Part shown: piece by piece, positions 15,927-35,129 of the stretch
How positions within the stretch are numbered: the stretch's first letter is position 1
Layout of the letters: the number at the start of each line of letters is the position of its first letter
Source of the DNA: a virus
Reading direction: 5' to 3' (one strand)
Virus record (IMG/VR): IMGVR_UViG_3300046474_000061
Span: 1-64,000 of that record
Length of the DNA: 64,000 nt
The notes under the pieces: model-generated
Database searches by the model: none
What the model saw: only the letters and a program-made list of their open reading frames with translations
Told to the model about the DNA's origin: nothing
Made by a program: the position numbers and the translations under genes

Positions 15927-15954
15927 GTGTCATGTGAGGTTAAGGTTATGACAC
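15909..15954 (+). promoter_or_regulatory. paired-hairpin leader element, copy 2 (start codon in stem)
   Basis: Hairpin A is AGG-GTAATATCG-CCT (15909-15923). Hairpin B is GTGTCAT (15927-15933) paired with ATGACAC (15948-15954). The loop of hairpin B carries GAGG, and the start ATG (15948) is the first triplet of the 3' strand, so initiation would need stem opening. A translational switch is the natural reading. Confidence 0.6.
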
Positions 15955-21183: not shown

Positions 21184-21588
21184 ATGTATATTATCGTATA
21201 CGGGACCCTAAAGAAGGGTGAAAATAATAATCGTATACTCGAAACTGGTAAGGCTCGTCTTGTGGGTCCTTGTGAGGTTCGAGGGTATAAGCTTTATTGG
21301 AGTGGTTTTCCGGTGGCTGCCCCCTCAGCGGAAGACGTTATTACAGGTGAGGTATGGGATATCTCAGGTGATCACAGTGCGATGACACTCAACAGGCTTG
21401 ATAGTCTTGAGGGTGTTGATCATTCTGAACGTGATGACGGTATGTACCAACGTCGTGAAGTCACTGCCTATACTGACAATGGTACTATTCCATGCCAGAT
21501 GTATGTGGGTAATCCTCGCTTCTGGTGTAACTTCAATTCTATGAGGGAGTGCCCAAGTGAAGACCGTAAATATACCTGGAGTAGGTGA
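21184..21588 (+). CDS. gamma-glutamylcyclotransferase-like (GGCT/AIG2) protein 1
   Basis: A 134-aa protein with the GGCT signature IIVYGTLKKGENNNRIL at the N-terminus (substrate-binding YGTL loop) and LDSLEGVD near residue 78, supplying the catalytic Glu. GGCT-fold enzymes cleave gamma-glutamyl amides to pyroglutamate. In amide-ligase clusters they are predicted to edit or release isopeptide products. It begins the peptide-chemistry region together with a second copy at 32820. Confidence 0.85.
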   Translation: MYIIVYGTLKKGENNNRILETGKARLVGPCEVRGYKLYWSGFPVAAPSAEDVITGEVWDISGDHSAMTLNRLDSLEGVDHSERDDGMYQRREVTAYTDNGTIPCQMYVGNPRFWCNFNSMRECPSEDRKYTWSR

Positions 21589-21877
21589 CCTACCATTCGA
21601 GGTAATGACCAACGCTGATCAGTGGGATGTTGGTGACTACTTCATGTATTCTATGAATAATAGCATCTACAAGTGTGTCGGTAAGATAGTCCGTAATGGT
21701 GAGACGTTCTGGAAAAGCATCAGCTACTCTACCTACTACAAGAAGTGGGATGCCCTTGAGCATACTTACAAGAAATCTGATTGGTGGCTTGATCCTCATA
21801 GTCTCCGAATCCTCCTGATAAAGGGGGAACTCCAGTATGACCCTAATCAACAAGGAGATACTGATGAAGACATCTAG
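21557..21877 (+). CDS. small protein with conserved acidic C-terminal tail (copy 1)
   Basis: A 106-aa product ending ELQYDPNQQGDTDEDI. The start overlaps the GGCT frame. The head (AWDVGDYFMYSMN-like region near residue 22) resembles a small barrel. The tail codons carry an AAGGAG ribosome site and the ATG of the next gene, so the genes are coupled. Head function unknown. Confidence 0.75.
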   Translation: MKTVNIPGVGDLPFEVMTNADQWDVGDYFMYSMNNSIYKCVGKIVRNGETFWKSISYSTYYKKWDALEHTYKKSDWWLDPHSLRILLIKGELQYDPNQQGDTDEDI

Positions 21878-22007
21878 CATGACATACATTGATCGATTAG
21901 CTCAGTCCTATGTCGAAGGTAGGATTGCTTGTGCTCGTTCCCTTCGTCGTGTCCTTGAGAAGCGACGTAAGACCAAATGGGAGATCAGACGTGAAACTAA
22001 CGGGTAA
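21864..22007 (+). CDS. small basic protein, 47 aa
   Basis: ATG 21864 lies inside the tail codons of the previous gene behind AAGGAG. The product begins MKTSSMTYIDRLAQSYVEGR and is Arg/Lys-rich, likely helical. Function unknown. Confidence 0.55.
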   Translation: MKTSSMTYIDRLAQSYVEGRIACARSLRRVLEKRRKTKWEIRRETNG

Positions 22008-22191
22008 AATCCAATACCGACTACAAACCGGTTGTTTCAAGAAACCTAAGTTAATTCTTCAAGTTCAAGAAACTGGACATGAGGTAGAGTACTTTGGTGG
22101 ATACCTTGAAACACAACATGTCACTCGTTACCGTGATGCTACGGTTGAAGACCTACAGGTTTTGAATTATGCAAGTCCGTTGCCTAAGTGA
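21991..22191 (+). CDS. hypothetical beta-rich protein, 66 aa
   Basis: GTG 21991 behind GGGAG is the best start; the upstream in-frame ATG 21910 lies inside the previous gene. Alternating beta pattern (KIQYRLQTG, KLILQVQETG, EVEYFGGY). No family recognised. Confidence 0.55.
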   Translation: MKLTGKIQYRLQTGCFKKPKLILQVQETGHEVEYFGGYLETQHVTRYRDATVEDLQVLNYASPLPK

Positions 22192-22417
22192 TAAACGGAC
22201 ATCAGACGGTAAGCTCTATATGTATCTCAGGACCGGTAAGGTCTACGATGTAAGGTGGGAAACAGATAGATGTTTTGTCATCCATACAGTTCGAGGTGAC
22301 ACACATTACCCCAAAGGTAATTTCAAAGTTGTCCCTCCTGATAGAAACTGCCAGCGCAGCGGAGATTGGGAGGATTATTGTATTAATCAATTAGGTGATC
22401 GAGAGGATGACCTTTGA
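22169..22417 (+). CDS. small barrel protein with degenerate acidic tail
   Basis: An 82-aa product from ATG 22169, overlapping the previous gene. A beta-rich head and the ending NQLGDREDDL, which resembles the QQGDTDDDL tail. It may be a diverged member of the family. A poorly spaced TTGACA follows directly. Confidence 0.55.
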   Translation: MQVRCLSDKRTSDGKLYMYLRTGKVYDVRWETDRCFVIHTVRGDTHYPKGNFKVVPPDRNCQRSGDWEDYCINQLGDREDDL

Positions 22418-22627
22418 TTGACACAAAAACTGAATTGCTAGTACTTAAGTATAACTACTAGGACTTATCTAGTAGTACTGTTCTATTAGTTGTACTTATG
22501 ATTTAGATTTAAATCTTTAGGACTTACTAAGGTTAAGTCCCTATGTAGTACCTATGATTTAAGTTTATCATATTTCTTGTTTGGTTGTCAATACCAAAAT
22601 TTCATTGCTCAACAAAGGGGATTTCCA
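22418..22627 (+). promoter_or_regulatory. AT-rich intergenic region with palindrome and repeats
   Basis: A 210-base gap between blocks. It holds TTGACA (22418-22423) with only a poor TACTTA -10 at 18 bases, the palindrome TACTTAAGTA (22442-22451), and repeated GTAC(T/C)TATGATTTA units near 22493 and 22546. The palindrome relates it to the 12.1-12.7 kb repeats. A regulated promoter for the ligase cluster is likely here. Confidence 0.5.
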
Positions 22628-23278
22628 ATGAGCGTCATTCATTCTACCGTGTCTACCGTTTGCACTGCTTCTCACTTCGTTGGCTGGAATCATCCCGGTA
22701 TGGACAGTGAAGACGAGAAGGTTCGACTGAACACAAAGATTCGTGTTGTCGATGAACTGATGGCACTCGGTTACAAAGAGGACTTCTCCCTCCTCGAAAT
22801 CATCATCACTGACCACCAGCGTACCAAGTATCGTCTCGATGAATTCATTCCGAACATCGGCTTCCAGATGGTCTTCGAATCCAAGAAGGACGAAGCTGCT
22901 CAACGACAGAAGTCCACAGGTAATCTCACCGTATGGTGTGCTGAGCCTCTGGTCTACAAGAAGGCTATCGAGTCCTACAAGAAGGAGCTTGCTGTCCTCA
23001 AGGAGAAGATTGATCCTCCGAAGAAGCCTGACCCCAAGCGTCTTGCCATTGAGACACTGCTCCTCTCGAAGCTCCGTAAGGCTAAGATGGTTCAAGACAA
23101 TACGGCAGTGAACAACCCGATTGCCCAGGTTCTTCTTGTCGAAGCTGATGTGTTCCAGAAGCATATCAAGATCAAGTATGGCTTTGATGTGAACAAAGTG
23201 ATTGGTGCTACTTGGACTAAGGCAACCATTCGTCAGCTCAAAGAGGCTCATGTAAGATGGCAGAACGAACTTCTCTAA
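22628..23278 (+). CDS. hypothetical protein, 216 aa, first gene of ligase block
   Basis: ATG 22628 behind AAAGGGGAT; the longer upstream reading has no ribosome site. Helical, with a long coiled region (about residues 105-150, KAIESYKKELAVLKEKIDPP). A HFVGWNHP motif near residue 15 could be catalytic but is not one I recognise. It overlaps the next gene by 22 bases. Confidence 0.65.
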   Translation: MSVIHSTVSTVCTASHFVGWNHPGMDSEDEKVRLNTKIRVVDELMALGYKEDFSLLEIIITDHQRTKYRLDEFIPNIGFQMVFESKKDEAAQRQKSTGNLTVWCAEPLVYKKAIESYKKELAVLKEKIDPPKKPDPKRLAIETLLLSKLRKAKMVQDNTAVNNPIAQVLLVEADVFQKHIKIKYGFDVNKVIGATWTKATIRQLKEAHVRWQNELL

Positions 23279-23535
23279 GGATTGGTGATCGGGTAGAACA
23301 TTGGGCTGGTCCTAGTGGTACTGGTGGTAATCCTAACTGCTATGGAGCTACAGGAGTTATCTTGGAATTCTATCCCGGCACGAGGTGCGCTAGGGTCATG
23401 TTTGACGACCACTGTTTACAAGCGAATGGTGGTCCTATTAATACAAGGATAGGACCTTGGATTGTCGACCGCCTTCGCTTGATAGAGATTCCATATGATG
23501 CCTCTCAACAAGGTGACACCGATGAGGATATTTAG
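23257..23535 (+). CDS. SH3-like small protein with acidic tail (copy 2)
   Basis: A 92-aa product. N-terminus SLRIGDRVEHW is the barrel start typical of SH3/KOW-like folds, followed by GATGVILEFYPGTR and ending IPYDASQQGDTDEDI. The next gene starts inside the tail codons. A binding module rather than an enzyme is likely. Confidence 0.75.
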   Translation: MAERTSLRIGDRVEHWAGPSGTGGNPNCYGATGVILEFYPGTRCARVMFDDHCLQANGGPINTRIGPWIVDRLRLIEIPYDASQQGDTDEDI

Positions 23536-23791
23536 TGTAGGTCAGGAGGTCGAATACACTGCTGGCCATAGAACTGGTGAGAAGACTTGGAAAGGTTCTC
23601 GGGGTACTGTAGTCAACATAGATGGTGATGATGGGCATCCTCATGTCAATTGGCACTCAGGCCCATTAGTAGAATGGCTTGTTTCCAAGGGTATGATTCT
23701 TAGAACCATGAGTCATCATCCAAACAATCTTGGTCCTACTGAATACACATATGACCCAAATCAACAAGGAGATACTGACGATGACCTCTAA
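23522..23791 (+). CDS. SH3-like small protein with acidic tail (copy 3)
   Basis: ATG 23522 is inside the previous tail behind AAGGTG. An 89-aa product: MRIFSVGQEVEYTAGHRTGE..., GSRGTVVNIDGDDGHPHV, ending YTYDPNQQGDTDDDL. The MRIFSV start recurs at 33999 because the same tail codons are read in the +1 frame. Confidence 0.75.
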   Translation: MRIFSVGQEVEYTAGHRTGEKTWKGSRGTVVNIDGDDGHPHVNWHSGPLVEWLVSKGMILRTMSHHPNNLGPTEYTYDPNQQGDTDDDL

Positions 23792-24392
23792 GGGTAAGGT
23801 CTATATCGTTGGCACTGATAGGTTGGTAGCTTCCCTCTTCTTCGAGAGGAACTATACCATCTGTAACAATCAAGATGATGCAGATATCCTCTGCTTCCTT
23901 GGTGGTGCTGACATTCACCCACGATACTACAATCAGGAGATCAATCGGGATGCTCACGTTAATGTAAGCAACATCGATGACACCCGTGATGAACATGCTT
24001 GGCGTCGTAAACGAAAGGACCAGCTTGCGGTAGGTATCTGCCGTGGTGGTCAGTTCATCAATGTCATGTCTGGTGGCAAGATGCTCCAGCATGTCTCTGG
24101 TGGACACACCAGTCCACATATGGTTCGTGATGTGTACTGGCATTCAGACATTCTTGTATCCTCACATCATCACCAAATGATGGTTCCTGGAGAGGATGCA
24201 GAAATGATGGCTTACTCTCATGGTCTTCTCAATGAGGCTATGAATGACAAGGGTAAGTGCAATATCCCTGAGTTCGAACCAGAAGTTCTCTGGTATGAAC
24301 ACTCGAAGTCTTTGTGTGTCCAGAGCCATCCTGAATGGAACCCGAAGAGTGGTGCTGACTACTTCTTCAAACTTGTGGACCTCGTAAAATGA
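23781..24392 (+). CDS. class I glutamine amidotransferase-like protein
   Basis: A 203-aa protein from ATG 23781 within the previous tail. GATase I pattern: LCFLGGADIHP (oxyanion strand), nucleophile elbow VGICRGGQF (Cys near residue 82), and catalytic His-x-Glu in QSHPEWNP near the C-terminus. This fold (with gamma-Glu-GABA hydrolase, PuuD) cleaves amide or gamma-glutamyl bonds or supplies ammonia. Among the ligases it could deamidate, edit or feed NH3. Confidence 0.8.
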   Translation: MTSKGKVYIVGTDRLVASLFFERNYTICNNQDDADILCFLGGADIHPRYYNQEINRDAHVNVSNIDDTRDEHAWRRKRKDQLAVGICRGGQFINVMSGGKMLQHVSGGHTSPHMVRDVYWHSDILVSSHHHQMMVPGEDAEMMAYSHGLLNEAMNDKGKCNIPEFEPEVLWYEHSKSLCVQSHPEWNPKSGADYFFKLVDLVK

Positions 24393-24643
24393 GACTCAAG
24401 GTTGGCGACAGAGTTCGAGTTTGTACCCAAAAATGGGGTGAGAACCAATTTGGTTTAACTGGCGTTATCTCTTCTCGATACCAACCCAACAGTTCCATCT
24501 ACAGATTGGATTGGGAGATAAAATACGACACTCCTTGGGGAACTCTTCGGTACAACCAGTATGCTGAAGACGATCTAGAACTCCTTTATAAAGAACTTCA
24601 ATATGACCCTAATCAACAAGGTGATACAGACGATGACATCTAA
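24389..24643 (+). CDS. SH3-like small protein with acidic tail (copy 4)
   Basis: An 84-aa product whose ATGA start overlaps the previous stop. Barrel start RLKVGDRVRVCTQKWG, then LTGVISSRYQPNSS, ending ELQYDPNQQGDTDDDI. The next gene starts in the tail codons. Confidence 0.75.
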   Translation: MRLKVGDRVRVCTQKWGENQFGLTGVISSRYQPNSSIYRLDWEIKYDTPWGTLRYNQYAEDDLELLYKELQYDPNQQGDTDDDI

Positions 24644-25529
24644 GAAGACAGACTTCCTTTCCCTCTCTGGGATTTCATACATCATCTATACCGATGGTGA
24701 CATCCAGAACGTTCGTCAGCAACAGCCGTGCTATGGCGAACTCCGTAAGTACGAGAAGACCCATCCGGGTGAATGCACTCAGCCGAAGAATGGAAAACCG
24801 GGAGATCTTCACTCTCCGTTCCCTGCTGGTACTCCTACCTCTCTGGAAGTTCCATTTGGTCAGTTCGCTGGTCAGTATGGTGGTGCTCCTCTTTCGGAGG
24901 AAACAGACCGTCTGTTCCAAGCGATGTTCTCCACCAACTCTCCTTGGGTTGCTGGCTTCGGTGAGGTAGAGTTTGTTCGTAAGGACAAGTTCATCCATGG
25001 TATCCGTATTCCGGACCTGACGATTGACCCTACCGTTCTTGTCAACTGCTTCAAGAACTTCCGTGCTACCCTTCCCCGTGCTGCTGAGTTCGCTGAGCTG
25101 GTGGATGCTGGTCTTACGGAGAATGAAGCTCTCGTTGCCCTCACTCTAAACAATGGTGGCTCTCTGAAGAATGGTATTGGTGCCACTGGTGCCTACTCTG
25201 GTCCAGTCATCTTCTCTGCCAAGAGGTTCTTCCAGCAGAAGCCCAATGACCTGACTGGTGGTTATCTCAAGGATCGTATTGACTACAATCGTACGAACAT
25301 GGGAGACCCCTTCCTGTCCACCATTGAAGCCGGTGGTGTACGTTGGCAGGAGATTGCCACTAAGCATGGCCTGAAGAAGATGTACGAAGGTACTAATGAT
25401 ATCAAGTCGATTGTCAAGGCTACGAAGGATGCGTTTGCAGAAGCGATCCAGAATGAGCCGGAGCCAGTCATCAAGCCTTGGATCTGGACAACCACATCGG
25501 GGAAAACCAATGGACCAATCGCAGCCTAA
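24633..25529 (+). CDS. hypothetical protein, 298 aa
   Basis: Translation most likely starts at ATG 24633 inside the previous tail (MTSKKTDFLSLSG...). Well-formed protein composition with KNGIGATGAYSGPVIF near residue 180. No enzyme motif recognised. It is one of the main-body genes of the cluster, so a structural or substrate role in the same pathway is plausible. Its end overlaps an 18-aa tail-only peptide frame. Confidence 0.65.
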   Translation: MTSKKTDFLSLSGISYIIYTDGDIQNVRQQQPCYGELRKYEKTHPGECTQPKNGKPGDLHSPFPAGTPTSLEVPFGQFAGQYGGAPLSEETDRLFQAMFSTNSPWVAGFGEVEFVRKDKFIHGIRIPDLTIDPTVLVNCFKNFRATLPRAAEFAELVDAGLTENEALVALTLNNGGSLKNGIGATGAYSGPVIFSAKRFFQQKPNDLTGGYLKDRIDYNRTNMGDPFLSTIEAGGVRWQEIATKHGLKKMYEGTNDIKSIVKATKDAFAEAIQNEPEPVIKPWIWTTTSGKTNGPIAA

Positions 25530-25566
25530 CTCTGGTCAACAGGGGGATACTGAAGATGACATTTAA
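25510..25566 (+). CDS. 18-aa peptide consisting almost only of the acidic tail
   Basis: ATG 25510 encodes MDQSQPNSGQQGDTEDDI. This is the family tail with practically no head. It overlaps the end of the 298-aa gene, and the next gene starts at 25556 inside it behind CAGGGGGAT. It could be a minimal peptide substrate or only a surviving coupling element. Confidence 0.5.
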   Translation: MDQSQPNSGQQGDTEDDI

Positions 25567-25828
25567 TCCGGGTGATAGGGTGATGTACGAAGGCGACCCT
25601 ATTGAATTCTCTCTTTCCTATAAGGCATGGCATGGCTCCCTTGGCACTGTAATGGCAACGAACAACACATTTCCTGAGAGAACACTTGTAGTGTGGGACG
25701 AAGACTCTTTGTTTGCTAAAGATAAAGATAATCGTGCTCGAAAAGGGGATCATCGTACTCATCTCCTTCGTAGTGCAGAACTTCAATACGATCCGTCACA
25801 ACAAGGTGACACCGAAGAAGATATCTAA
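25556..25828 (+). CDS. SH3-like small protein with acidic tail (copy 6)
   Basis: A 90-aa product: MTFNPGDRVMYEGDP, GSLGTVMATNNTFPERT, ending AELQYDPSQQGDTEEDI. Here the tail has no overlapping ATG; the next gene starts 14 bases later with its own AAAGGA site. So the tail is conserved even when it does not carry the next start codon. Confidence 0.75.
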   Translation: MTFNPGDRVMYEGDPIEFSLSYKAWHGSLGTVMATNNTFPERTLVVWDEDSLFAKDKDNRARKGDHRTHLLRSAELQYDPSQQGDTEEDI

Positions 25829-25842
25829 CAAAGGATAATAAC

Positions 25843-27021
25843 ATGTGCGGTCACGCTGGCATGATTGGTACTGGAATGAGCCGGGACGACATTCATATCC
25901 TTCGGGAGTTGGGTATTGTCTCACAGCTTAGGGGATTGGATGGGGCTGGTATCTTCCAGGTTCGTTCAACAAAGCCTAACTATGTGTCGAGCAATTCGAC
26001 ATACCTCGATTGGGATTCGTTCTACAAGACGCCATATCCCTATTCGAACATGCTTCTCGAAGTAGAGGCAAGCAAGAATCCACAGGTACGAGACGTACTC
26101 AACAACACGATGGTTGACGTTGTGATGATGCATGTACGAGCCTCTACTCGTGGTGTCGTATCGATGGATAACGCTCACCCGTTTGAATTCGATAACCTTG
26201 TTGGTGCTCATAATGGTACTCTCAAGGATCAGAAGTACAATCAACATCCCACAAAGACAGATTCGGAAATGATGTTCCGTGATATCTCTCAGAATGGGTT
26301 GGGGAATATACTGAACAAGATGGATCGTGACAGTGCATATGCCATTGTCATGTACAATAAGGCTGATCGTTGTGTGTACTTTGCACGTAACGAACTTCGG
26401 ACGATGGCCTTTGCCTTCTTGAAAGATCGTTCGGTGATGTACTATGCGTCGGACTACAACATGCTCAAGTATGTTCTTGATCGTGCCAACGAAGAGTACA
26501 CCATCTATCACATGAAGCCACGTGTCATCATCAAGGTGAAGGCATCTGACATCAACAAAACTAAGTGGAATGCTCCTCTTGATACTCTTCAGGTTCATGA
26601 GAAGCTCACTCAGTCGCATCCTGTTGCTTGGAATAAGTTCTATGAGGCAGAAGCTCGTAAGCAGAAGGCTGAAAAGAAAGAAGAGCAAGTCAAGAAGGTG
26701 GATGAAAAGTTCAAGATCCCCATGGCCGCCCCTTCCCAACAGGCTCTCGTCACTGTCCCTGAAAAGAAGGAGGATACGAACAACATCGTAAATTTTCCGA
26801 AGGGGCAGACACCTCAGACCAAGGAGCCAGGGCTCAAGTTCTCACCGAAGGGTTCCTACGTAAAGTGTGTATGTGGTTGTTCAACACTTAACCTGTTTCA
26901 GGCTGATCTTGCAATGAGAGGTCAACACAAGTCCGTGACATACCATTCGGATGACCAATTCCGTTGCACCAATTGCCCTGAATATAAGCTTGGAAAGGCT
27001 GAGGAGAATGCGGTCGGATAA
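25843..27021 (+). CDS. class II glutamine amidotransferase 1
   Basis: A 392-aa protein starting MCGHAGMIG. Cys2 is the N-terminal nucleophile of Ntn GATase II enzymes (after Met removal), followed by LRGLDGAGI, HVRASTRG (His/Arg of the glutamine pocket) and GAHNGTL. The last 100 residues are a Lys-rich linker and a Cys-x-Cys...Cys-x-x-Cys zinc-ribbon-like end (CVCGCSTLNL ... CTNCPEY). It would release NH3 from glutamine for an amide-forming partner, probably one of the neighbouring ligases. Confidence 0.85.
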   Translation: MCGHAGMIGTGMSRDDIHILRELGIVSQLRGLDGAGIFQVRSTKPNYVSSNSTYLDWDSFYKTPYPYSNMLLEVEASKNPQVRDVLNNTMVDVVMMHVRASTRGVVSMDNAHPFEFDNLVGAHNGTLKDQKYNQHPTKTDSEMMFRDISQNGLGNILNKMDRDSAYAIVMYNKADRCVYFARNELRTMAFAFLKDRSVMYYASDYNMLKYVLDRANEEYTIYHMKPRVIIKVKASDINKTKWNAPLDTLQVHEKLTQSHPVAWNKFYEAEARKQKAEKKEEQVKKVDEKFKIPMAAPSQQALVTVPEKKEDTNNIVNFPKGQTPQTKEPGLKFSPKGSYVKCVCGCSTLNLFQADLAMRGQHKSVTYHSDDQFRCTNCPEYKLGKAEENAVG

Positions 27022-27235
27022 TCCTTGGAATGATGTGATGTTCCCTTGTATTCTGATCTCTAATGAGACTGGAAATAAGTACCTCTTTCAAGGTGTTGGA
27101 ACAGCACAAAGAGTGTATGATGACGGAACTCTAGGCCCTATGTCTGCCACATTGGCCAGGAGGCGTGCTCATTGGGAAATTGGTGAATTAAAATACGACC
27201 CTACTCAACAGGGCGACTTAGATGAGGATATTTAA
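27008..27235 (+). CDS. small protein with acidic tail (copy 7)
   Basis: A 75-aa product from ATG 27008 behind GAGGAGA, overlapping the amidotransferase end. The head differs from the SH3-like ones (MRSDNPWNDVMFPCILISNE...). It ends ELKYDPTQQGDLDEDI and its stop overlaps the next ATG (TAATG). Confidence 0.7.
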   Translation: MRSDNPWNDVMFPCILISNETGNKYLFQGVGTAQRVYDDGTLGPMSATLARRRAHWEIGELKYDPTQQGDLDEDI

Positions 27236-27444
27236 TGAAGATACGCATTTGGAAAGCAGTTACTGACAATGGTGATGGGAGTAATTCATCCCATATTTTC
27301 AAATCAAAGCAGGAAATGATTGAAGTCCTCGAATTGTTTGAAGTCGATGGCAACATGCAAGGCTCTGCTATTGATAGCGATGACTACACCGTCGAGTGGG
27401 CGTCGGAGATTTTTGATACAAAAGGTTTTGAGGTAATCGAATAA
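27235..27444 (+). CDS. hypothetical protein, 69 aa
   Basis: ATG 27235 overlaps the previous stop. A compact alpha/beta protein (MKIRIWKAVTDNGDGSNSSH...), acidic. No tail. Its stop overlaps the remnant frame at 27444. Confidence 0.6.
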   Translation: MKIRIWKAVTDNGDGSNSSHIFKSKQEMIEVLELFEVDGNMQGSAIDSDDYTVEWASEIFDTKGFEVIE

Positions 27445-27482
27445 TGACTACTATTAAGATTGGTGCTGATGGCCCAAGTTGA
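27444..27482 (+). pseudogene. orphan 5' end of an amidoligase gene
   Basis: ATG 27444 encodes only MTTIKIGADGPS. It matches the amidoligase start at 27909 (MTNIRIGCDPEGF) at Met, Thr, Ile, Ile, Gly and Asp, and has the TAATG overlap expected of the original gene start. The homing endonuclease gene begins inside it. It looks like the old first codons, displaced when the endonuclease inserted. Confidence 0.55.
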
Positions 27483-27912
27483 CTTCAATGGGTATACATA
27501 CGAAATTGATGAGTATGGTAACGTTTCAAAAAGAAGCGGCAAAGGTTTTGTAAAATGTTTTCCTGATAAGGATGGGTATTTAAAAATCACTATCAGAAAT
27601 AAAAAGACAGAGCCTACTTATAATGAATATATTCATCGGGCAGTATTTCGTACTTTCAATGGTGAAATACCAGAAGAGATGAGCGTTGACCATATAGATA
27701 AAGATCGTTTGAATAACCATAAAGACAATCTTCAACTTATGACAATGGAAGACAATGCTGTAAAAGGTAATGCAGAAAATTGGTTTGTTATGTCACCTGA
27801 TGGGAATGTTTTTGAAATCTATAATCTCAGAGCATTCTGTAGGGAGAATAATCTCCATTCATCACATCTTGTGACACACTCATATAAAGGTTGGAAGGCT
27901 ATTAAACAATGA
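27469..27912 (+). CDS. HNH homing endonuclease
   Basis: A 147-aa protein. An N-terminal NUMOD4-like GYTYEIDEYGNVSKRSGKG segment precedes HNH core residues: the IHRAVFRTF helix, VDHIDKDRLNNHKDNL (His and Asn of the beta-beta-alpha metal site), and a C-terminal NUMOD-like helix (LRAFCRENNL). Freestanding HNH genes make site-specific cuts to copy themselves into sister phages. AT-rich codons unlike both neighbours mark it as an insertion at the 5' end of the amidoligase gene. Confidence 0.85.
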   Translation: MAQVDFNGYTYEIDEYGNVSKRSGKGFVKCFPDKDGYLKITIRNKKTEPTYNEYIHRAVFRTFNGEIPEEMSVDHIDKDRLNNHKDNLQLMTMEDNAVKGNAENWFVMSPDGNVFEIYNLRAFCRENNLHSSHLVTHSYKGWKAIKQ

Positions 27913-28625
27913 CAAATATTCGTATAGGATGCGACCCTGAGGGCTTCCTTGTGGATGGCAATGGTGAGTTTGTTGCTGCATACGGTTACGTACCCGGTGA
28001 CAAAGAGAACCCACATAAGCTCGACGGTGGTGCTGTCCAAGTGGATGGCTTTGCTGTCGAGTTCAACATTGATCCTGTCGAGACTGCAGATCAGTTTCAT
28101 AAGAACATCAAGAAAGTCCTCTATCAGATCAATGAAATGATCCATTCGGTCGACAAGGGTATGAGCATTCGGTGGACTCCGATTGCAAAGTTCCGTTCGA
28201 CCATTTGGAATATGGCCCCCGAACAGTGCAAGGTTCTTGGTTGTGATCCTGACTTTAATGTCAGTGGTCAGATGAATGAAAACCCTACGCAGAAGTTGGA
28301 AAACAATCCCATTCGTACGGCAGCAGGTCATATCCATATCGGTTGGCTCGATGAATTGTTGGAAGATGCAACAATCAAGGACCATTTTGATATGTGCACT
28401 GACATTGCACGAGGGTTCTATCGTAGCAACCTGTCTTCCTATATTCCTCATACCAAGGAAGAAGTAGAACGTCTGAACTACTATGGTCACAGTGGTTCGT
28501 TCCGTCCCAAGAAGTATGGGATTGAACTTCGTTCTCCGAGTAACATTTGGGTTGCTCATGAGGAGTCGCAGAAGTTGATCTTCGATCAGACAAGGAAACG
28601 CTTCCATGAACTCACCGGTCTATAA
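27909..28625 (+). CDS. phiEco32-type carboxylate-amine (COOH-NH2) ligase
   Basis: A 238-aa protein of the glutamine-synthetase/gamma-glutamylcysteine-ligase fold seen in phiEco32-like phages. Seen: GCDPEGFLVDGNGEFV, DGGAVQVDGFAVEFNI (metal-binding Glu strand), RTAAGHIHIGW (nucleotide/metal His) and YGIELRSPSN. Such enzymes form amide bonds between carboxylates and amines using ATP. Its ATG lies just after the HNH gene. Relatives include the Pup ligase fold; the substrate here is unknown. Confidence 0.85.
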   Translation: MTNIRIGCDPEGFLVDGNGEFVAAYGYVPGDKENPHKLDGGAVQVDGFAVEFNIDPVETADQFHKNIKKVLYQINEMIHSVDKGMSIRWTPIAKFRSTIWNMAPEQCKVLGCDPDFNVSGQMNENPTQKLENNPIRTAAGHIHIGWLDELLEDATIKDHFDMCTDIARGFYRSNLSSYIPHTKEEVERLNYYGHSGSFRPKKYGIELRSPSNIWVAHEESQKLIFDQTRKRFHELTGL

Positions 28626-28881
28626 AGTTGGCAATAGAGTTAGTACTGGTACCCTCTTCAAACGACATGGATATAAAGTAGGGACTGTAGTTTATGTATC
28701 TCCATCTCTTACATACTATGTTCGTGTAGAAGGTTATCCCTACGATAGTAGAGAGTATCCGGGTTTTCCTAGTGGTGATGTTCATATGTGGAGTATCGAT
28801 TCTATGAATACCTATGGAATGTGTTTGGATGAATTAGAATATGATCCTACTCAGCAAGGTGATTTGGATGATGACATTTAA
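28606..28881 (+). CDS. SH3-like small protein with acidic tail (copy 8)
   Basis: A 91-aa product overlapping the ligase end. VYKVGNRVSTGTLFKRHG, YKVGTVVYVSPS, ending ELEYDPTQQGDLDDDI. Tail overlap with a short MTFNHHWF frame. Confidence 0.75.
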   Translation: MNSPVYKVGNRVSTGTLFKRHGYKVGTVVYVSPSLTYYVRVEGYPYDSREYPGFPSGDVHMWSIDSMNTYGMCLDELEYDPTQQGDLDDDI

Positions 28882-28923
28882 TCATCATTGGTTTTAGCAG
28901 AGCTAAAGAGGACGACATTTAAG
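28882..28923 (+). pseudogene. degenerate copy of the 34.6 kb tail-only peptide
   Basis: The frame reads IIGFSRAKEDDI before a stop and matches MIFDIIGFSGAKDDDL at 34595-34645, but it has no usable start codon. Both stretches sit right after a tail gene and directly before a longer gene, showing duplication of this spacer. Confidence 0.5.
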
Positions 28924-29553
28924 ATGAGACAGAAGTATAAAGGTGAAGATATCAAGGCTCGTCTTCATCACACGATCATTCGTTACGACAATGTGCCGTA
29001 TATGTGTGACGTGGACAGTGCTGGTTCGATTGGTCTGATGGACCTCGCAACCGGTTCGAGTGTTGGTCGCGTATTGTCAGACGACCCCAAGCTCGACATT
29101 TCCAGTATCAATATTGGGTTTGTCAATGTCATTCATCCTAATTACAAGTGCGCTGTATACCTAAAGCGTGAGCCTTTTCGGAAGTTCAAGCAGGGTATCG
29201 AGCTGCACTCGTTGACGCAGAAGGTTCTGCACAATGGGGTGACGACGGTCGATCATTCAGTACTCTCTTCGAAACAATTCGTTGATGCAGTATTGGGTAA
29301 GTTCCCATCGTACAAGGATGCCCTTGACCTTCTGACGAAGAAGGGTTTTCAGTCAGTTGCTATCTCTCGTGACGTAGCACTGAAGAAAGAGGATGAACTC
29401 CTCAAGGTTTACCTGAAGGATACAGAGGTTGGGTTCATTAAGCTCAGCCTTAATCTGACTAAGGTGTTTGTTCCCCGGACGGAACAGAGCTACTACCATA
29501 TGGTACTGCTCGAAGACATCAAGGGTTGGGACGTAGTTGAAGGTGTAAGGTAA
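28924..29553 (+). CDS. hypothetical protein, 209 aa
   Basis: ATG 28924 (MRQKYKGEDIKARL...) preceded by AAAGAGGA; the in-frame upstream GTT-rich extension is not protein-like. Well-mixed alpha/beta composition and no motif recognised. It sits between two carboxylate-amine ligases, which argues for a role in the same pathway. Confidence 0.6.
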   Translation: MRQKYKGEDIKARLHHTIIRYDNVPYMCDVDSAGSIGLMDLATGSSVGRVLSDDPKLDISSINIGFVNVIHPNYKCAVYLKREPFRKFKQGIELHSLTQKVLHNGVTTVDHSVLSSKQFVDAVLGKFPSYKDALDLLTKKGFQSVAISRDVALKKEDELLKVYLKDTEVGFIKLSLNLTKVFVPRTEQSYYHMVLLEDIKGWDVVEGVR

Positions 29554-29554
29554 C

Positions 29555-30601
29555 ATGGCACAGCAAGTTTCTACAATTTATGATATCATGAAGTCTCAGG
29601 GTCGCTTCACTGGCAACAAGGTTAAGGGTGCTGTCGGTGTTGAAATCGAGACTGAGACCAAAAAGAAATACGACTATCCATTGATGAAGTACTGGAACAC
29701 AGTCAAGGACAACTCCTTGCGTGACTTCGGTGTCGAGTATGTCCTCAAGGCCCCCATGGATATGCCCGAATTTGAGAAGGCTCTGGCAGAATTTGATCAG
29801 GCAGAGAAGAAATATAAGTTCGAGAAGGGTTCAATCTCGACTTCAGTGCATGTCCATGTAAATATGTTGGACGATACGTACTTGACATTGGCGAACTTTG
29901 CCACTGCGTATACTCTGGTGGAGAATCCTCTCATCAGATACTCAGGTCCAGATCGTCTCTCGAACCTGTTTTGTCTCCCGATCTGTGATGCAGAAGGTGT
30001 TAAGGACAATCTTGTTCACCTATTCCAGAATGTCAACAGGAATATGTGGAATCGTGTATCTGTTGATGCCAATAGGTGTAAGTATGGTGCCCTTAATCCG
30101 GCTCCTATCTCCACTCTTGGTACTTTTGAGATCCGTTCTTTCCGTGGTGAGACAGATGTCAAGGTAATTCAGAGTTGGGTTGACATCGTTTTGAAGCTGA
30201 AAGAGTTTGCCCGTCGTCCGGGACTGACACCTCCGGATATTCTTCTCATGTGGAAGAACAATAAGAGTGCCATCTTAGAGATTATCTTCCAAGAATATGC
30301 ATCTGAACTTCGCTTCAAGGACCCAAAGACAGGCAAGGATGCAACAGAGGATTTGATCTATCAGAACCTCAAATATGCTGCTGACATTGCTGCTGTCTCT
30401 AAGGATTGGACGAAGTTTGGTATCCTCAAGCTCAAGCCAGTCTATTTAGAGAAGTGCAAGGATGCCTTGGATGCTTTGTCACAGAAGCGTTTCCAGGTTC
30501 CCTTCGATAGTCTTCCCTACCATGAACGATTGGTTGTCCTTGAGCTTTATCATCGGAACAATCCCAATCAGAAGGTAGTGTCTATCAATGAAGACCTATG
30601 A
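29555..30601 (+). CDS. amidoligase (Amidoligase_2-type) enzyme
   Basis: A 348-aa protein with the phage amidoligase pattern: VGVEIETETKK (metal-binding Glu pair) near residue 29, TSVHVHVNM (His-x-His) near residue 96, and LGTFEIRSFRG near residue 190. It is in the carboxylate-amine ligase superfamily and predicted to make peptide or isopeptide bonds. The second ligase of this fold in the window. Its end overlaps the next tail gene by 14 bases. Confidence 0.85.
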   Translation: MAQQVSTIYDIMKSQGRFTGNKVKGAVGVEIETETKKKYDYPLMKYWNTVKDNSLRDFGVEYVLKAPMDMPEFEKALAEFDQAEKKYKFEKGSISTSVHVHVNMLDDTYLTLANFATAYTLVENPLIRYSGPDRLSNLFCLPICDAEGVKDNLVHLFQNVNRNMWNRVSVDANRCKYGALNPAPISTLGTFEIRSFRGETDVKVIQSWVDIVLKLKEFARRPGLTPPDILLMWKNNKSAILEIIFQEYASELRFKDPKTGKDATEDLIYQNLKYAADIAAVSKDWTKFGILKLKPVYLEKCKDALDALSQKRFQVPFDSLPYHERLVVLELYHRNNPNQKVVSINEDL

Positions 30602-30872
30602 ACCACTGACAAAGAAAATCTCTGAACTTCCTGATGGTACAGAGTTTGGTCCTATCAATTGGTTAAAAGGAAATAATCCCATCGGTCTATATTGGATTTC
30701 TCACAGGAAAAATAATCAGATGTTTCTAGGCCATAATGACTGGTCCGGAAGCCTCCTCGAATGGAATCTAGAAGCTTTCGATGGCTATGTTAATAAAATG
30801 GGATGGGTTATGTCCACCCAAGAACTTCAATATGATCCGACCCAACAGGGCGACACAGAAGAGGATATTTGA
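30588..30872 (+). CDS. small protein with acidic tail (copy 9)
   Basis: A 94-aa product: MKTYEPLTKKISELPDGTEF, a Trp-rich middle, ending ELQYDPTQQGDTEEDI. The head is not SH3-like, so the tail is carried by unrelated heads. The stop is 1 base from the next ATG. Confidence 0.75.
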   Translation: MKTYEPLTKKISELPDGTEFGPINWLKGNNPIGLYWISHRKNNQMFLGHNDWSGSLLEWNLEAFDGYVNKMGWVMSTQELQYDPTQQGDTEEDI

Positions 30873-30873
30873 A

Positions 30874-31674
30874 ATGTCTATTACCGCAATGTTCTCATAC
30901 AATCAGTTCTCCGAAGGTGGTAAGGAACTGGCTGATGCACTCTCTATTCCACGTATCAAGCATTCTGGTTCGAAGTTCAAGGCGACTTCCAGCAAGACCC
31001 TGTTGAATTGGGGTGCTACCTCTGACCGGTTCCCGAAGGAATATCTTTCGTGCCGAGTCCTGAACCCACCATCTGCTGTCGACAATGCAGTGGATAAGAT
31101 TCGTTCCTTTGATATCTTCAAGGCTGCGAAGGTTTCCATCCCTGAGTTCACGACAAATAGGCAACAGGCTATCGAGTGGCTGAATGCTGGTTCGATGGTG
31201 TTTGCTCGTACTCAGCTTCGTGCACACTCTGGTCGTGGTATTGTCATCATGGACCCTGAGTTCCCTGAAACTTGGGAAGTGACTGCCCCTCTCTTTGTCA
31301 AGTACGTACCGAAGAAGGATGAGTATCGTATCCATGTGATGCGTGGTCAGGTTGTGGACATCCAGCGTAAAGGTCTGAAGGCAGAGCTTCAGGGTACGGA
31401 AGGAGTCAACTTTAAGATCCGTAACCTTGCCAACGGCTTCATCTATACCCGTAATGACAATGCTGGTATGGCTCTGATCTTGTCTGCATCTGTCCCTCAG
31501 AATGTCAAGGAAGTAGCTGTTCAGGCAGTTGCTGCTCTTAGTCTCGACTTCGGTGCAGCAGACATCATCTGGAATGATAAACAGAAGAAGGCGTATTGCC
31601 TTGAAGTGAATACGGCTCCGGGTCTCTCGGGTTCTACCATCACCAACTATGCCGAAGCAATGGCCGGTTTCTAA
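30874..31674 (+). CDS. ATP-grasp ligase (RimK-like)
   Basis: A 266-aa protein from ATG 30874. ATP-grasp elements: KAAKVSIPEF, VFARTQLRAHSGRGIVIM (nucleotide-binding strand and Gly loop), FVKYVPKKDEYRIHVM, and C-terminal AADIIWNDKQKKAYCLEVNT then APGLSGST (Mg-binding Glu-x-Asn). RimK-type enzymes add glutamate or other amino acids to carboxyl groups. The third amide-forming enzyme of the cluster. Confidence 0.85.
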   Translation: MSITAMFSYNQFSEGGKELADALSIPRIKHSGSKFKATSSKTLLNWGATSDRFPKEYLSCRVLNPPSAVDNAVDKIRSFDIFKAAKVSIPEFTTNRQQAIEWLNAGSMVFARTQLRAHSGRGIVIMDPEFPETWEVTAPLFVKYVPKKDEYRIHVMRGQVVDIQRKGLKAELQGTEGVNFKIRNLANGFIYTRNDNAGMALILSASVPQNVKEVAVQAVAALSLDFGAADIIWNDKQKKAYCLEVNTAPGLSGSTITNYAEAMAGF

Positions 31675-31693
31675 TACAAGGTTTGATATTTAA

Positions 31694-32842
31694 ATGTGTG
31701 TGATTTTTCACTTTACTCCAGGCTCTAGTCTGAACAAGCAGCAGTTCATCAATGCTGTCCACAACAATTGGCATGGCTACGGTCTTGTCATGGTGGATGG
31801 TAACAAACAAATCCAAATGGTGAAGGGCTTCAATGAAGAGGGTACTGACCCTGAAGTCCTCTGGAAGTTGATTACCGACAACAATGATATCGATCGGTAT
31901 CTCCACATCCGTCATTCGACCAAGGGTGCAACAGATGAAACAAACGTACAACCGTTCCCGGTCTATTCATCTAATGATCGGATTGTGTATTTTATGCACA
32001 ATGGTACTCTTGGGTATGCTTTTGGTTCAAACAACACTGGCAAGTCTGACACCCTAGAGTTTTGTGAAAAGATCCTTCAGCCAGCACTCCTCCGTTGGAC
32101 TGGTGCAGAAGGTAAGGGTGATTACACGGATGAAGAGTTCTTTCGGCTAGTAGTGGACAAACAGTGGGTTGATAGCTCGACTGGTTTGTTCTGCTCGAAT
32201 GATCTTGCCCCTCGTCGTATCGGGAAGAACTGGTCCCAGTACAAACATCCTGACATCTCATCATCAGGTGAGGTTTGGGTGTCCAACACGCTATACTTTG
32301 AGAAGGTGTCGCGTGGTCCAATGTTTCAAAAGCTCGAAGCTGAACGCAAAGCAGCAGAGGCGGCAAGAGCGGCGCAAACGTCGAAGAAGGAGGTAGCTCC
32401 TGAACATGGTGGCCCTTTTTGGGAGGACCACATGGACGACCACTGGGGGTGGCCTCACCAGTATCCAGGCCACAACGGGCATCCGACTACGGGTGGGGCT
32501 CAGAGTGGTGTGGGGTCGAATATTAGGAAGTGGTCAGACTCCAACGCAGCAAAATCTCCTAAGCTCCTCAAGGCGATGTCAGAGGTTGTCAACACTTGGG
32601 ACTTCGAAGATGAGGAAGATATCAAAGAACTCATCAACCTGACTCAGGAAGAGTGGTATGATATCATCGAAGAGAATCATGGTGAATGGTTCGCTATCGC
32701 CATGCTCGGTCAGATCCTTGAACACTACAATCGTATGTTCATTCGAAACAAGTTCCTTGAGAACAAGCTGAAGAAGGCTGAAGCTCGTATTATTGCAATG
32801 AAGAAGGGAGAAGAACCTAATGCAAATTCGGAAGCCGCGTAG
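31694..32842 (+). CDS. class II glutamine amidotransferase 2
   Basis: A 382-aa protein starting MCVIFHFTPG with Cys2 as Ntn nucleophile; WHGYGLVMV, RYLHIRHSTKG and YFMHNGTLG are GATase II landmarks. A Lys/Ala-rich linker (about 220-240) and an acidic helical C-terminal half follow. Paralogous in design to the 25843 gene but without the zinc-ribbon end. It would supply ammonia or transfer glutamyl groups. Confidence 0.8.
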   Translation: MCVIFHFTPGSSLNKQQFINAVHNNWHGYGLVMVDGNKQIQMVKGFNEEGTDPEVLWKLITDNNDIDRYLHIRHSTKGATDETNVQPFPVYSSNDRIVYFMHNGTLGYAFGSNNTGKSDTLEFCEKILQPALLRWTGAEGKGDYTDEEFFRLVVDKQWVDSSTGLFCSNDLAPRRIGKNWSQYKHPDISSSGEVWVSNTLYFEKVSRGPMFQKLEAERKAAEAARAAQTSKKEVAPEHGGPFWEDHMDDHWGWPHQYPGHNGHPTTGGAQSGVGSNIRKWSDSNAAKSPKLLKAMSEVVNTWDFEDEEDIKELINLTQEEWYDIIEENHGEWFAIAMLGQILEHYNRMFIRNKFLENKLKKAEARIIAMKKGEEPNANSEAA

Positions 32843-33425
32843 TAATAGCTTCACTATGATGAAGGAGGCTAACTCGAACACTCCAGACTTCCGTGCTCTG
32901 AAAAGAGGAACGCATGATGAATTCCCCGTGCTAGTTACGGGGAACATGCGACACGGGAGGAACAAGAATGATATCCTTGAGGGCTGCCATTACTACGGGC
33001 CAGCTATGTCCTTCGATGATAACTATATCATGCAGAGGAACAAGAATGTCAAATCGGTCCACAATATCCCTGAGCCTTTTGTGTTCACCTTTGAGAAGGG
33101 TGAGATCCAGACATCTCATGGACTATTCAGAGATCAAGACCAGAAGCATATCGAAGGTGATGTGTATGGTGTACCCCTCCGTAAACTGACACAACTTGAC
33201 CGTATCGAAGGTAACGGAGATATGATTGAACGTCAGCAACGTTGGGTCACCTTCATGTCTCCAATTCAGAAGGAGAAGAGTATCCGTGCTTGGGTCTACG
33301 TGGTCGATCTTAAACAATACCTTGACGCCTTCTCGGGATCGAACAATCTGGAAATCTGCCGCAGTTATGGATGTAATAATCCAAGGGATGAGGAGTTTGT
33401 CGATGTCTACTACCATTCCTATTAA
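32820..33425 (+). CDS. gamma-glutamylcyclotransferase-like protein 2
   Basis: A 201-aa product from ATG 32820, overlapping the amidotransferase end. GGCT-like signature VLVTGNMRHGRNKNDIL (in place of YGTL) and GDVYGVPLRKLTQLDRIEG with the catalytic Glu. Diverged from the first copy at 21184; the altered first loop may mean changed specificity. Confidence 0.75.
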   Translation: MQIRKPRSNSFTMMKEANSNTPDFRALKRGTHDEFPVLVTGNMRHGRNKNDILEGCHYYGPAMSFDDNYIMQRNKNVKSVHNIPEPFVFTFEKGEIQTSHGLFRDQDQKHIEGDVYGVPLRKLTQLDRIEGNGDMIERQQRWVTFMSPIQKEKSIRAWVYVVDLKQYLDAFSGSNNLEICRSYGCNNPRDEEFVDVYYHSY

Positions 33426-33681
33426 TATAGGGGATGAAATTACTCACAATCAGTACAGTCACCTCAAAGGAGAAGTCCTTGAAGTGTTCTTGAATAGTAA
33501 AGGATATGGTCCAACTCCTAATAAAATGGAGCCATTCATCAGAGCAAGATGGGTAGCACACTATGAGGGTTCGGAAAAGACTGGATCCCCATACACCGCC
33601 ACTGAGCCTGCTGAAAATGTTCGTCCTGCACAACTTCAATACGATCCCACGCAGCAGGGAGATTTAGAGGAAGATATTTGA
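33403..33681 (+). CDS. SH3-like small protein with acidic tail (copy 10)
   Basis: A 92-aa product from ATG 33403: IPINIGDEITHNQYSHLKGE, ending AQLQYDPTQQGDLEEDI. It overlaps the GGCT end. The tail contains no ATG; the next gene starts 1 base after the stop. Confidence 0.75.
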   Translation: MSTTIPINIGDEITHNQYSHLKGEVLEVFLNSKGYGPTPNKMEPFIRARWVAHYEGSEKTGSPYTATEPAENVRPAQLQYDPTQQGDLEEDI

Positions 33682-33682
33682 A

Positions 33683-34012
33683 ATGAAATTTGCATTAGGT
33701 AGTTTTATTAAGTATACTAATAAGAATACTAAGACTGAGATCTTCGGCACCGTTATTGCTGGTGAACACGATATGCATCTCGTTCTTGTGGAAGGTGGGA
33801 AGACGAATTCACAACTAGGTCGAACTTCTTTCTATAAGAATTATGCCTCGACATTTCTCTCTCAGTATTTTAACAAAGACGCAACCTATAATACTCTTTA
33901 TAGAACCAAGAGTGATAAGGCTATCTGGATATCTGCTCGGAGTAAGAATCTTGTCTCAGGTGTCTTGACGTATGACGCCACACAACAAGGGGATACCGAT
34001 GAGGATATTTAG
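33683..34012 (+). CDS. small protein with acidic tail (copy 11)
   Basis: A 109-aa product: MKFALGSFIKYTNKNTKTEI, FGTVIAGEHDMHLVLVEGG, a barrel-like head, ending VLTYDATQQGDTDEDI. The next gene starts in the tail behind AAGGGG. Confidence 0.75.
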   Translation: MKFALGSFIKYTNKNTKTEIFGTVIAGEHDMHLVLVEGGKTNSQLGRTSFYKNYASTFLSQYFNKDATYNTLYRTKSDKAIWISARSKNLVSGVLTYDATQQGDTDEDI

Positions 34013-34307
34013 TGTAATCAAAGAGGTCTTGATATATCTCGGAATTATGACTGCCAAACCTAAATTTCAAATAGGGGATAAGGTAAGCTATAGAACGTTT
34101 GATGAGTTTTGTTTGTGGAAAGACGGAGAAATTGTTTCCATCGAATACTCTATTGGTAGCCACATATACTATGGTGTCATCTTTCATGACAGTCTTTCAT
34201 ACAAAGAGTTTGCGATATCAACATCAGAGCGATCTCTTATTTTGGTTGCCCCTAAGCAACTAGAGTATGATCCTAAGCAGCAAGGAGATCTAGATGAAGA
34301 CATTTAA
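33999..34307 (+). CDS. SH3-like small protein with acidic tail (copy 12)
   Basis: ATG 33999 gives MRIFSVIKEVLIYLGIMTAK (102 aa); an internal ATG near 34048 before FQIGDKVSYRTFDEF is an alternative. It ends QLEYDPKQQGDLDEDI. A barrel start and tail as in the other members. Confidence 0.7.
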   Translation: MRIFSVIKEVLIYLGIMTAKPKFQIGDKVSYRTFDEFCLWKDGEIVSIEYSIGSHIYYGVIFHDSLSYKEFAISTSERSLILVAPKQLEYDPKQQGDLDEDI

Positions 34308-34605
34308 TATAGGTGATATCGTCAACATAGATATCCCCGGTAGTTCCATGGGTATCAAAGCCGGTATCATTGAACAAGTGGATTCATGGACAGAAACCTA
34401 TGACGACTGGGATGAGGATGAAGATGGTGAACCACCAGAGCCTCAAGAATTCGTTGAGTACATAATCTACGTCACTGATCCGCCAGATCTCAAAGTAGGT
34501 CATGGTAGGGACAACAAGTGTTGGTATGTTGACCAATCTTACGTAACACTTGGTGAACTTCAATACGATCCAACAAAACAAGAGGATGGTGATGATGATC
34601 TTTGA
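34294..34605 (+). CDS. SH3-like small protein with acidic tail (copy 13, variant)
   Basis: A 103-aa product: MKTFNIGDIVNIDIPG, a very acidic insert (DDWDEDEDGEPPEPQE), and a variant tail ELQYDPTKQEDGDDDL. The start lies in the previous tail behind AAGGAG. Confidence 0.75.
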   Translation: MKTFNIGDIVNIDIPGSSMGIKAGIIEQVDSWTETYDDWDEDEDGEPPEPQEFVEYIIYVTDPPDLKVGHGRDNKCWYVDQSYVTLGELQYDPTKQEDGDDDL

Positions 34606-34645
34606 CATCATTGGATTTAGCGGAGCTAAAGATGACGACCTATAG
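34595..34645 (+). CDS. 16-aa tail-like peptide
   Basis: ATG 34595, overlapping the previous tail, encodes MIFDIIGFSGAKDDDL. It ends in the same acidic DDD(I/L) pattern, and a start-less copy is found at 28882-28923. The next gene's ATG (34632) is inside it. Confidence 0.4.
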   Translation: MIFDIIGFSGAKDDDL

Positions 34646-35129
34646 AGAAAGGACAAAGCCTTGGGAAAGTCGAACTGCTTTCAAGAAGGATGCTCCTCGT
34701 CAAGAACAGAAGAAGACTTATTCTACAAGGACTGAAAGGATTTCTGAATGGCGAGACTGGTTTGACAATAACAATGATTGGGGTTGGACTTCAATGACAA
34801 GTAATCCAGTGAAGGACCCACTGAAAATAGACGACAGTATTCCAACTGAACAGTTTTCATCATGGGATGATCTTCAGAAGGGTGATGAAATCATCTGGTA
34901 TGATGAAAAAGGTGTTGACAAAAAGTACCATCTGATCTTCGAGAAATATGGAAGTGTGGTGGAAGCTCGTGATAAGAATGGGGCACTAGGATGTTATTCT
35001 TCTTATATTTATCCTCATAAAGGTTGGGTTACTCTTGGTAATCCAGACAGAAAGATTGGGTGGAAAAAAGTAGTCACTGAACTACAGTACAACCCTGAAC
35101 AACAGGGTGATACGGAAGATGATCTCTAG
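34632..35129 (+). CDS. 165-aa protein with acidic tail (copy 14)
   Basis: From ATG 34632. A basic, probably disordered N-terminal 60 residues are followed by a barrel-like SWDDLQKGDEIIWYDEKGV region and the tail ELQYNPEQQGDTEDDL. The last tail gene, directly before a consensus promoter. Confidence 0.75.
   Translation: MTTYRERTKPWESRTAFKKDAPRQEQKKTYSTRTERISEWRDWFDNNNDWGWTSMTSNPVKDPLKIDDSIPTEQFSSWDDLQKGDEIIWYDEKGVDKKYHLIFEKYGSVVEARDKNGALGCYSSYIYPHKGWVTLGNPDRKIGWKKVVTELQYNPEQQGDTEDDL

Follow-up and report, generated by a model that had tools for sequence, protein, structure and literature searches.

Why do fourteen small genes of one phage end in the same short acidic peptide? The question is raised by 64,000 nucleotides of viral DNA (positions 1 to 64,000 of the IMG/VR record IMGVR_UViG_3300046474_000061, hereafter the window), in which small proteins with divergent N-terminal parts, here called heads, share a C-terminal tail with the consensus Y-D-P-x-Q-x-G-D-x-[DE]-[DE]-D-[IL]. 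We show that this peptide is itself under selection, that the tails of each genome evolve together, that the tailed genes are linked to a cassette of predicted ligases, and that cassette proteins of other phages include fused heads of the same type. Our answer, tentative and held at somewhat less than even confidence, is that the tail is a selected docking peptide joining interchangeable SH3-like adaptor heads to the ligase machinery. The cassette is already known; in the open-access literature we found no earlier description of the shared tail or of the set of proteins carrying it.

The Shared Tail and Selection on the Peptide

The C-terminal 13-mers of all 456 open reading frames (ORFs) of at least 40 amino acids in the window were compared pairwise. 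The comparison yields 101 high-scoring pairs, whereas 500 residue shuffles reached six at most and 500 draws of internal 13-mers nine, which rules out chance as the origin of the matching tails. A preliminary description of the window had listed fourteen tails. All fourteen sequences are present and 13 of them end real genes, the remaining one, at 25566, being an out-of-frame relic at which no gene ends. A decayed tail had been missed, YCINQLGDREDDL, ending at 22417 on a protein whose ortholog L079_1133 (IMG/VR contig L079; E = 1.9e-8) ends in the canonical YDPNQQGDRDEDI, and the count of tailed genes is therefore again fourteen. Elsewhere in the 69,935-base record, no further copy was found at the level of the exact pattern.

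Codon use indicates that selection acts on the peptide and not on a ribosome signal. Compared with one another, the fourteen genuine tails have identities of 0.81, 0.87, and 0.41 at the first, second, and third codon positions. Synonymous positions vary freely, as had been noticed from the start: Gly is encoded by GGA, GGT, GGC, and GGG (4, 6, 2, and 1 times), Pro by its four codons, and Tyr, Asp, and Gln by both of theirs. The same-codon probability is 0.46, compared with 0.45 expected from phage codon usage, whereas the LENE ends of Citrobacter phage CVT22, a by-product of ribosome sites that serves as positive control, give 0.70 for 0.43 expected. Shine-Dalgarno words are unrecognisable in several window tails and differently placed in others; reused codons with a GGAG-type word at a fixed distance, the signature of such a by-product, are found in CVT22 and not in the window. 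Between the Rhizobium phages N3_13 and N3_19, the ratio of nonsynonymous to synonymous differences (pN/pS) is 0.083 in tails and 0.271 in heads, and across lineages it is 0.26 and 0.55, the tail values coming from 13 codons with few sites. The preliminary description had proposed that a tail ratio near 1, or relatives keeping the ribosome site without the peptide, would mark the tail as a by-product of translation; the ratios lie well away from 1, and homologous phages keep the peptide on different heads. Synonymous divergence (dS) between N3_13 and N3_19 orthologs is 1.1 in tails and 0.32 in heads (about 3.5-fold), an excess that may, judging from the sequences, reflect exchange of tails between copies.

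These data also dispose of translational coupling, according to which the DNA would be conserved merely on account of ribosome-binding sites and overlapping starts. Several next genes do begin inside a tail, and the LENE ends of CVT22 and the LLEENV ends of Salinivibrio phage CW02 use frozen codons that give GGAG beside start codons. In the window, third positions are only 41% identical, all four Gly codons are used, the same-codon probability equals expectation where that of CVT22 exceeds it, and the copies ending at 25828, 30872, and 33681, which are indeed clear of the next start codon, retain the peptide. Coupling is thus refuted for the phage group of the window, where we give it next to no credence, and accepted as a confounder in CVT22 and CW02.

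Tails in Related Phages

The portal protein of the record is about 75% identical to those of Rhizobium phages RHph_N3_13, I3_11, and N3_19 and of Sinorhizobium phage phiM6, and a direct nucleotide search of phages with the tail region gave no match. Other phages have the tail as well. Each of the two Rhizobium phages examined encodes 17 tailed ORFs of the QTGDTEDDI type, and phiM6 has 13 with the diverged form Y[KR][IV]DQEPxEDEExL (tail peptide YKIDQEPMEEEETL), which aligns through Y-x-x-D-Q. All IMG/VR loci in which the RimK-like ATP-grasp ligase, one of the cassette enzymes, is at least 57% identical have the tail, in 9–19 copies where the flank suffices, and in per-locus dialects such as QMGDR, QQGE, QQPDEED, and QNGD. 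A scan with the tail pattern alone returned nine contigs, and nine of nine bear cassette genes. Sister phages lacking the cassette (CRP-3, HMO-2011, and HTVC033P) show no shared tails; the primase-based control set comprises two loci only. In N3_13, the tailed gene at 32188-32472 (FTQGQTGDTGEDI), which has an ortholog in N3_19, lies among replication genes about 10 kb from the others. The GenBank record MN988507 contains an unannotated tailed gene (around 15833-16113, ending at 16113) after the COOH-NH2 ligase.

Tails vary by genome and not by head. The similarity of a tail to those borne by unrelated heads of its own genome is 0.752, compared with 0.698 to the tail of the orthologous head elsewhere and 0.679 to random tails there, and none of 200 permutations of genome labels reaches the observed within-genome excess. 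This is what one would expect of a partner shared by all the tails of each phage.

Other lineages have different shared ends on the same type of head. Locus L126 has PExYEEWFK in five copies and L094 has TLEELMEEYL in nine, both with free synonymous codons; these two ends, LENE, and LLEENV are unrelated in sequence. The head profile finds three or more copies per locus only where a shared C-terminus exists. Outside the set from which the profile was built, the multi-copy loci are CVT22 (L072), CW02 (L074), and L121, and a shared end occurs in three of three such loci versus 0 of 71 others, a contrast weakened by L121, whose weak ALSN end (three copies) was recognised only after its heads. CVT22 and CW02 resemble the window in having the same kind of head, the same cassette, and a common end, but their shared ends coincide with ribosome sites, which freeze the codons that are free in the window. 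At CVT22 13173, where the next start is 47 nucleotides off, the Shine-Dalgarno word is lost and the peptide kept, and at CW02 10216 the peptide is kept with non-Shine-Dalgarno codons. In a quick version of the ATP-grasp tree, the QGD-type group forms a single clade (support 99), and the remaining tailed lineages occupy three or more positions elsewhere.

Heads and Their Fusion to Cassette Proteins

The heads have diverged beyond the reach of BLAST, which sorts 162 of them into 79 clusters, whereas the tails have not. The motif [VIL]G[DE]x[VIL] is present in 55% of the heads versus about 2% (8/438) of the other small ORFs of three reference genomes, and a profile built from the head alignment matches KOW/SH3-like barrels (Spt5 KOW, HERC2, MIB1, and eL21). 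No cysteine figures among the invariant or nearly invariant columns of this alignment. The AlphaFold 2 model of one head (25556..25828; pLDDT 79, pTM 0.65) is predicted to be a five-stranded small barrel of this SH3-like/KOW kind and matches the Spt5/NusG KOW domains and eL21 in the PDB (probability 1.0, E about 4e-3, TM about 0.5). Heads of the window thus belong mostly to one diverged SH3-like/KOW superfamily, an assignment that rests on weak profiles for some members. The view of the tail as a tag on unrelated proteins therefore holds only in part, since the heads are no random set of genes. They share the predicted fold of the barrels of Spt5, NusG, eL21, and the Mib/HERC2 repeats, from which they differ in being single short barrels, with many paralogs per phage and a common tail. 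The tail itself is probably a short disordered peptide, strictly C-terminal and conserved in its last residue. Sequence is a poor guide to tailed heads: a tblastn search with 28606-28881 gave zero matches in 50,697 phage records.

In other genomes, those of phages that lack tails, the head domain is covalently fused to cassette proteins. When the first 155 residues of the COOH-NH2 ligase of RIO-1 are compared with 7,782 small ORFs, the best matches are tailed heads of L094 (1.9e-7 and 6.5e-7). A conserved cassette protein of uncharacterised family, recognised in 46 ORFs of cassette loci and a profile homolog of the product of 24633..25529 in the window (+ strand; hhalign E = 5e-6, probability 86%), has one to five SH3-like units in L128, L105, L100, L122, L140, and L076, N-terminal to the conserved part. 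The best profile E-values of these units range from 1.9e-8 to 1.7e-3, for 0.13 in the best reversed decoy, and the L100 fusion is weakly supported. At L122 1999-4068 and L140 2744-4729, cassette proteins of 661-689 residues have four to five SH3-like repeats followed by a conserved uncharacterised domain. In a predicted model of the L128 protein, the two N-terminal barrels match tandem KOW domains. Viral proteins that resemble this model in structure include some from the cassette phages CVT22, CW02, and RIO-1.

The Tailed Genes of the Window

All tailed genes of the window are on the + strand. Ten have SH3-like heads or regions: 23257..23535 (tail YDASQQGDTDEDI), 23522..23791 (YDPNQQGDTDDDL; its probable start lies inside the preceding tail), 24389..24643 (YDPNQQGDTDDDI), 25556..25828 (YDPSQQGDTEEDI; the head whose structure was predicted), 28606..28881 (YDPTQQGDLDDDI), 33403..33681 (YDPTQQGDLEEDI), 33683..34012 (YDATQQGDTDEDI; with an ortholog in the Rhizobium phages), 34047..34307 (YDPKQQGDLDEDI), 34294..34605 (YDPTKQEDGDDDL), and 34602..35129, which encodes 175 amino acids with an SH3-like region (YNPEQQGDTEDDL; alternative start at 34632). 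The 106-residue protein of 21557..21877 (tail YDPNQQGDTDEDI at 21836-21877) has a head homolog in L077 with the related tail YDPNGEGETDDDI, and the decayed tail belongs to 22169..22417. The heads of 26951..27235 (YDPTQQGDLDEDI) and 30588..30872 (YDPTQQGDTEEDI; no head homolog detected) are unclassified. Just upstream of the cassette, 20575-21183 encodes a tail-less protein of 202 amino acids that starts with MTFKVGDIVY and has an SH3-like N-terminus (E = 0.012).

The out-of-frame relic occupies 25525..25566 on the + strand (PNSGQQGDTEDDI), immediately after a 308-aa gene that stops at 25529 and is overlapped by the reading frame upstream of the relic. Delivery of the tail to the 308-aa protein by frameshifting is ruled out, because the homologous gene in two Rhizobium phages has no tail at the equivalent place. 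From its sequence, the relic seems to have been retained because the next gene has its ribosome site and start there; being headless, it suggests that a tailed gene was lost by a deletion that spared the end containing the next ribosome site. A second short repeat stands directly behind two tails (34606-34645 and 28882-28922), out of frame with them. Its DNA, TCATCATTGG-TTTAGC-GAGCTAAAGA-GACGAC, can be read as IIGFSGAKDDDL / IIGFSRAKEDDI and contains the ribosome site for the gene that follows; this repeat may be what is left of the end of a further tailed gene.

The Enzyme Cassette

The tailed genes alternate with those of a peptide-ligase cassette, overlooked in the preliminary description, and their neighbours are replication genes, not structural ones. 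All cassette genes are on the + strand. A gamma-glutamyl cyclotransferase (GGACT) at 21184..21588 (Pfam PF06094, 3.4e-18) is followed by a gamma-glutamyl hydrolase-like peptidase C26 at 23781..24392 (PF07722, 1.8e-10), the conserved protein described above, and a class II glutamine amidotransferase at 25843..27021 (PF13522, 1.3e-10). Next come a phiEco32-like COOH-NH2 ligase type 2 at 27909..28625 (phrog_3815, 7.4e-56; PF14395 weak), an Amidoligase_2 at 29555..30601 (phrog_7469, 9.5e-47; PF12224, 7e-6), and, between these two amidoligases as in other cassette phages, a conserved protein at 28888..29553 (phrog_11055). The RimK-like ATP-grasp ligase at 30874..31674 (phrog_2599, 7.7e-74) has the RimK glutamate ligases as closest solved relatives (profile match to Escherichia coli RimK 5zct, 4.8e-6). 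A second class II glutamine amidotransferase at 31694..32842 is below the cut-off (PF13230, 1.1e-3), and its counterpart at the same position in the Rhizobium phages is annotated as such; another GGACT follows at 32820..33425 (PF06094, 8.9e-9).

Amidoligase_2, COOH-NH2 ligase type 2, RimK-like ATP-grasp, and class II glutamine amidotransferase thus lie in one operon upstream of the primase-helicase, in a gene order syntenic with phiM6 and the Rhizobium phages. Family membership predicts a peptide or isopeptide ligase activity, and the cassette includes both enzymes that form and enzymes that remove gamma-glutamyl bonds. The ATP-grasp alone is present in 310 phage records, and one contig of a metagenome-assembled genome matched in a scan of genome contigs, so that the cassette appears essentially viral at that sensitivity. 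The same cassette is known in RIO-1, PA11, phiEco32, PaP3, and phiM6, and a role in the modification of peptidoglycan or cell wall was proposed for it in phiM6 (PMC6256558) and in RIO-1-like phages (PMC5498523). In these phages, as in the window, the enzymes and their order beside the primase-helicase are identical; the portions of the two papers drawn on here mention neither small tailed SH3-like proteins nor a shared C-terminal peptide.

What the Tail May Do

How, then, could the tail work? In the docking model, small and fast-diverging SH3-like/KOW heads would each end in the same disordered acidic peptide, which would let all of them engage one partner, most likely a cassette protein. Candidates are the conserved protein of 24633-25529, the COOH-NH2 ligase, and the RimK-like ATP-grasp. 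The heads would be interchangeable adaptors taking the ligase machinery to different targets. We infer both the binding of the tail to a cassette protein and the choice of targets by the heads; the most economical reading is that heads are functionally part of the cassette, either fused to it or attached by the peptide, with the tail as plug. That many heads share one tail favours docking.

Several observations weigh against this model. The cassette does not need the tail: a shared tail went undetected by automatic scan in about 69 of the 80 loci encoding a related ATP-grasp, a set that includes some incomplete loci, and in phiEco32, PaP3, VPp1, LAh_9, RIO-1, and Privateer, which rejects the idea that every cassette phage has one. 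The tailed genes of phiM6 are grouped at one end of the cassette region and do not alternate with the ligases. Joint early expression might by itself account for the operon linkage. The shared ends of CVT22 and CW02 are indistinguishable from ribosome-binding sites. Finally, SH3/KOW domains are common in phages, and some of the fusions may be incidental.

An acidic C-terminus together with kinship to RimK favours modification instead, and the tail would then be a substrate: the RimK-like ATP-grasp and the amidoligases would add amino acids or amines to it, peptidase C26 and GGACT would trim it, and the tailed proteins would be carriers or targets. RimK adds glutamate residues to the C-terminus of ribosomal protein S6 and LysX acts on LysW; the phage cassette shares with these systems a RimK-type ATP-grasp beside small proteins with acidic C-terminal tails. 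The co-evolution of the tails within a genome and the presence of gamma-glutamyl-forming and -removing enzymes in the cassette also fit. We regard this possibility as serious, although unlikely, given that the tail ends in Ile or Leu (elsewhere in Lys, Glu, or another residue, according to lineage) and not in the Glu of LysW, that the chemically attractive residues vary between lineages, that a carrier has no need of many divergent heads, and that the majority of cassettes have no tailed proteins. The tailed proteins are not members of the zinc-binding LysW/ArgW family, whose acceptor is the C-terminal Glu of EDWGE, and differ from LysW in having no conserved cysteines and 10-19 different heads. 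Nor are they Pup tags, which end in Gly-Gly-Glu/Gln and are ligated by Dop/PafA: the tails end in DEDI, DDDI, or similar, and the cassette ligases are Amidoligase_2, COOH-NH2 ligase, and RimK-like.

Alternatively, the tail may dock outside the cassette, as a cargo signal for capsid or scaffold or onto a hub of the host (RNA polymerase or the ribosome, for instance), in which case a shared early operon would account for the linkage to the cassette. KOW-type heads resemble domains that bind RNA polymerase and ribosomes, and in encapsulin cargo-loading peptides, as in the C-terminal tip of SSB, one short C-terminal peptide on otherwise different proteins meets one partner. The phage peptide differs from these in sequence, in varying by phage lineage, in being carried by one head fold, and in having only a candidate partner. 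We consider an outside partner rather improbable, as it must account for the nine of nine tail-bearing contigs with a cassette, for heads fused to cassette proteins elsewhere, and for tailed genes adjoining replication and not structural genes. The acidic C-terminus might also set stability, by shielding the small proteins from, or presenting them to, proteases that read C-termini (ClpXP, Tsp), which would suit a tail that is short, probably disordered, confined to the C-terminus, and conserved at its last residue; this idea leaves the YDPxQxGD half, the lineage-specific sequences, and the link to one cassette and one fold unexplained, and has little to recommend it. Very little probability attaches to the last alternative, that tails are the slowest-changing end of a recently amplified family, homogenised by recombination and without a shared partner. 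Most heads do belong to one superfamily, and the raised dS of ortholog tails is what inter-copy exchange would give, but no other part of the protein has a pN/pS as low as the tail, the copies differ from one another at third codon positions almost to saturation, which indicates no recent homogenisation, and distinct common tails arose in unrelated phages on heads of the same type.

Returning to the docking model, its furthest extension is a multi-adaptor ligase, in which many fast-evolving SH3-like receptor heads, plugged into a common carboxylate-amine ligase complex by a lineage-specific C-terminal peptide, would direct covalent modification to many host targets, the plugs being re-invented in unrelated phages and the heads fused in others. 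We consider this conceivable but doubtful. The cassette occurs in hundreds of phages, including phiEco32 and PaP3, and cell wall modification is no more than a proposed role for it. The tailed proteins offer a handle on it, as a synthetic tail peptide should capture the partner and the heads should capture the targets. If the adaptor reading is true, these phages would have a counterpart of substrate-receptor ligase systems, and their docking peptides, re-invented in separate lineages on the same fold, would constitute a rare natural experiment.

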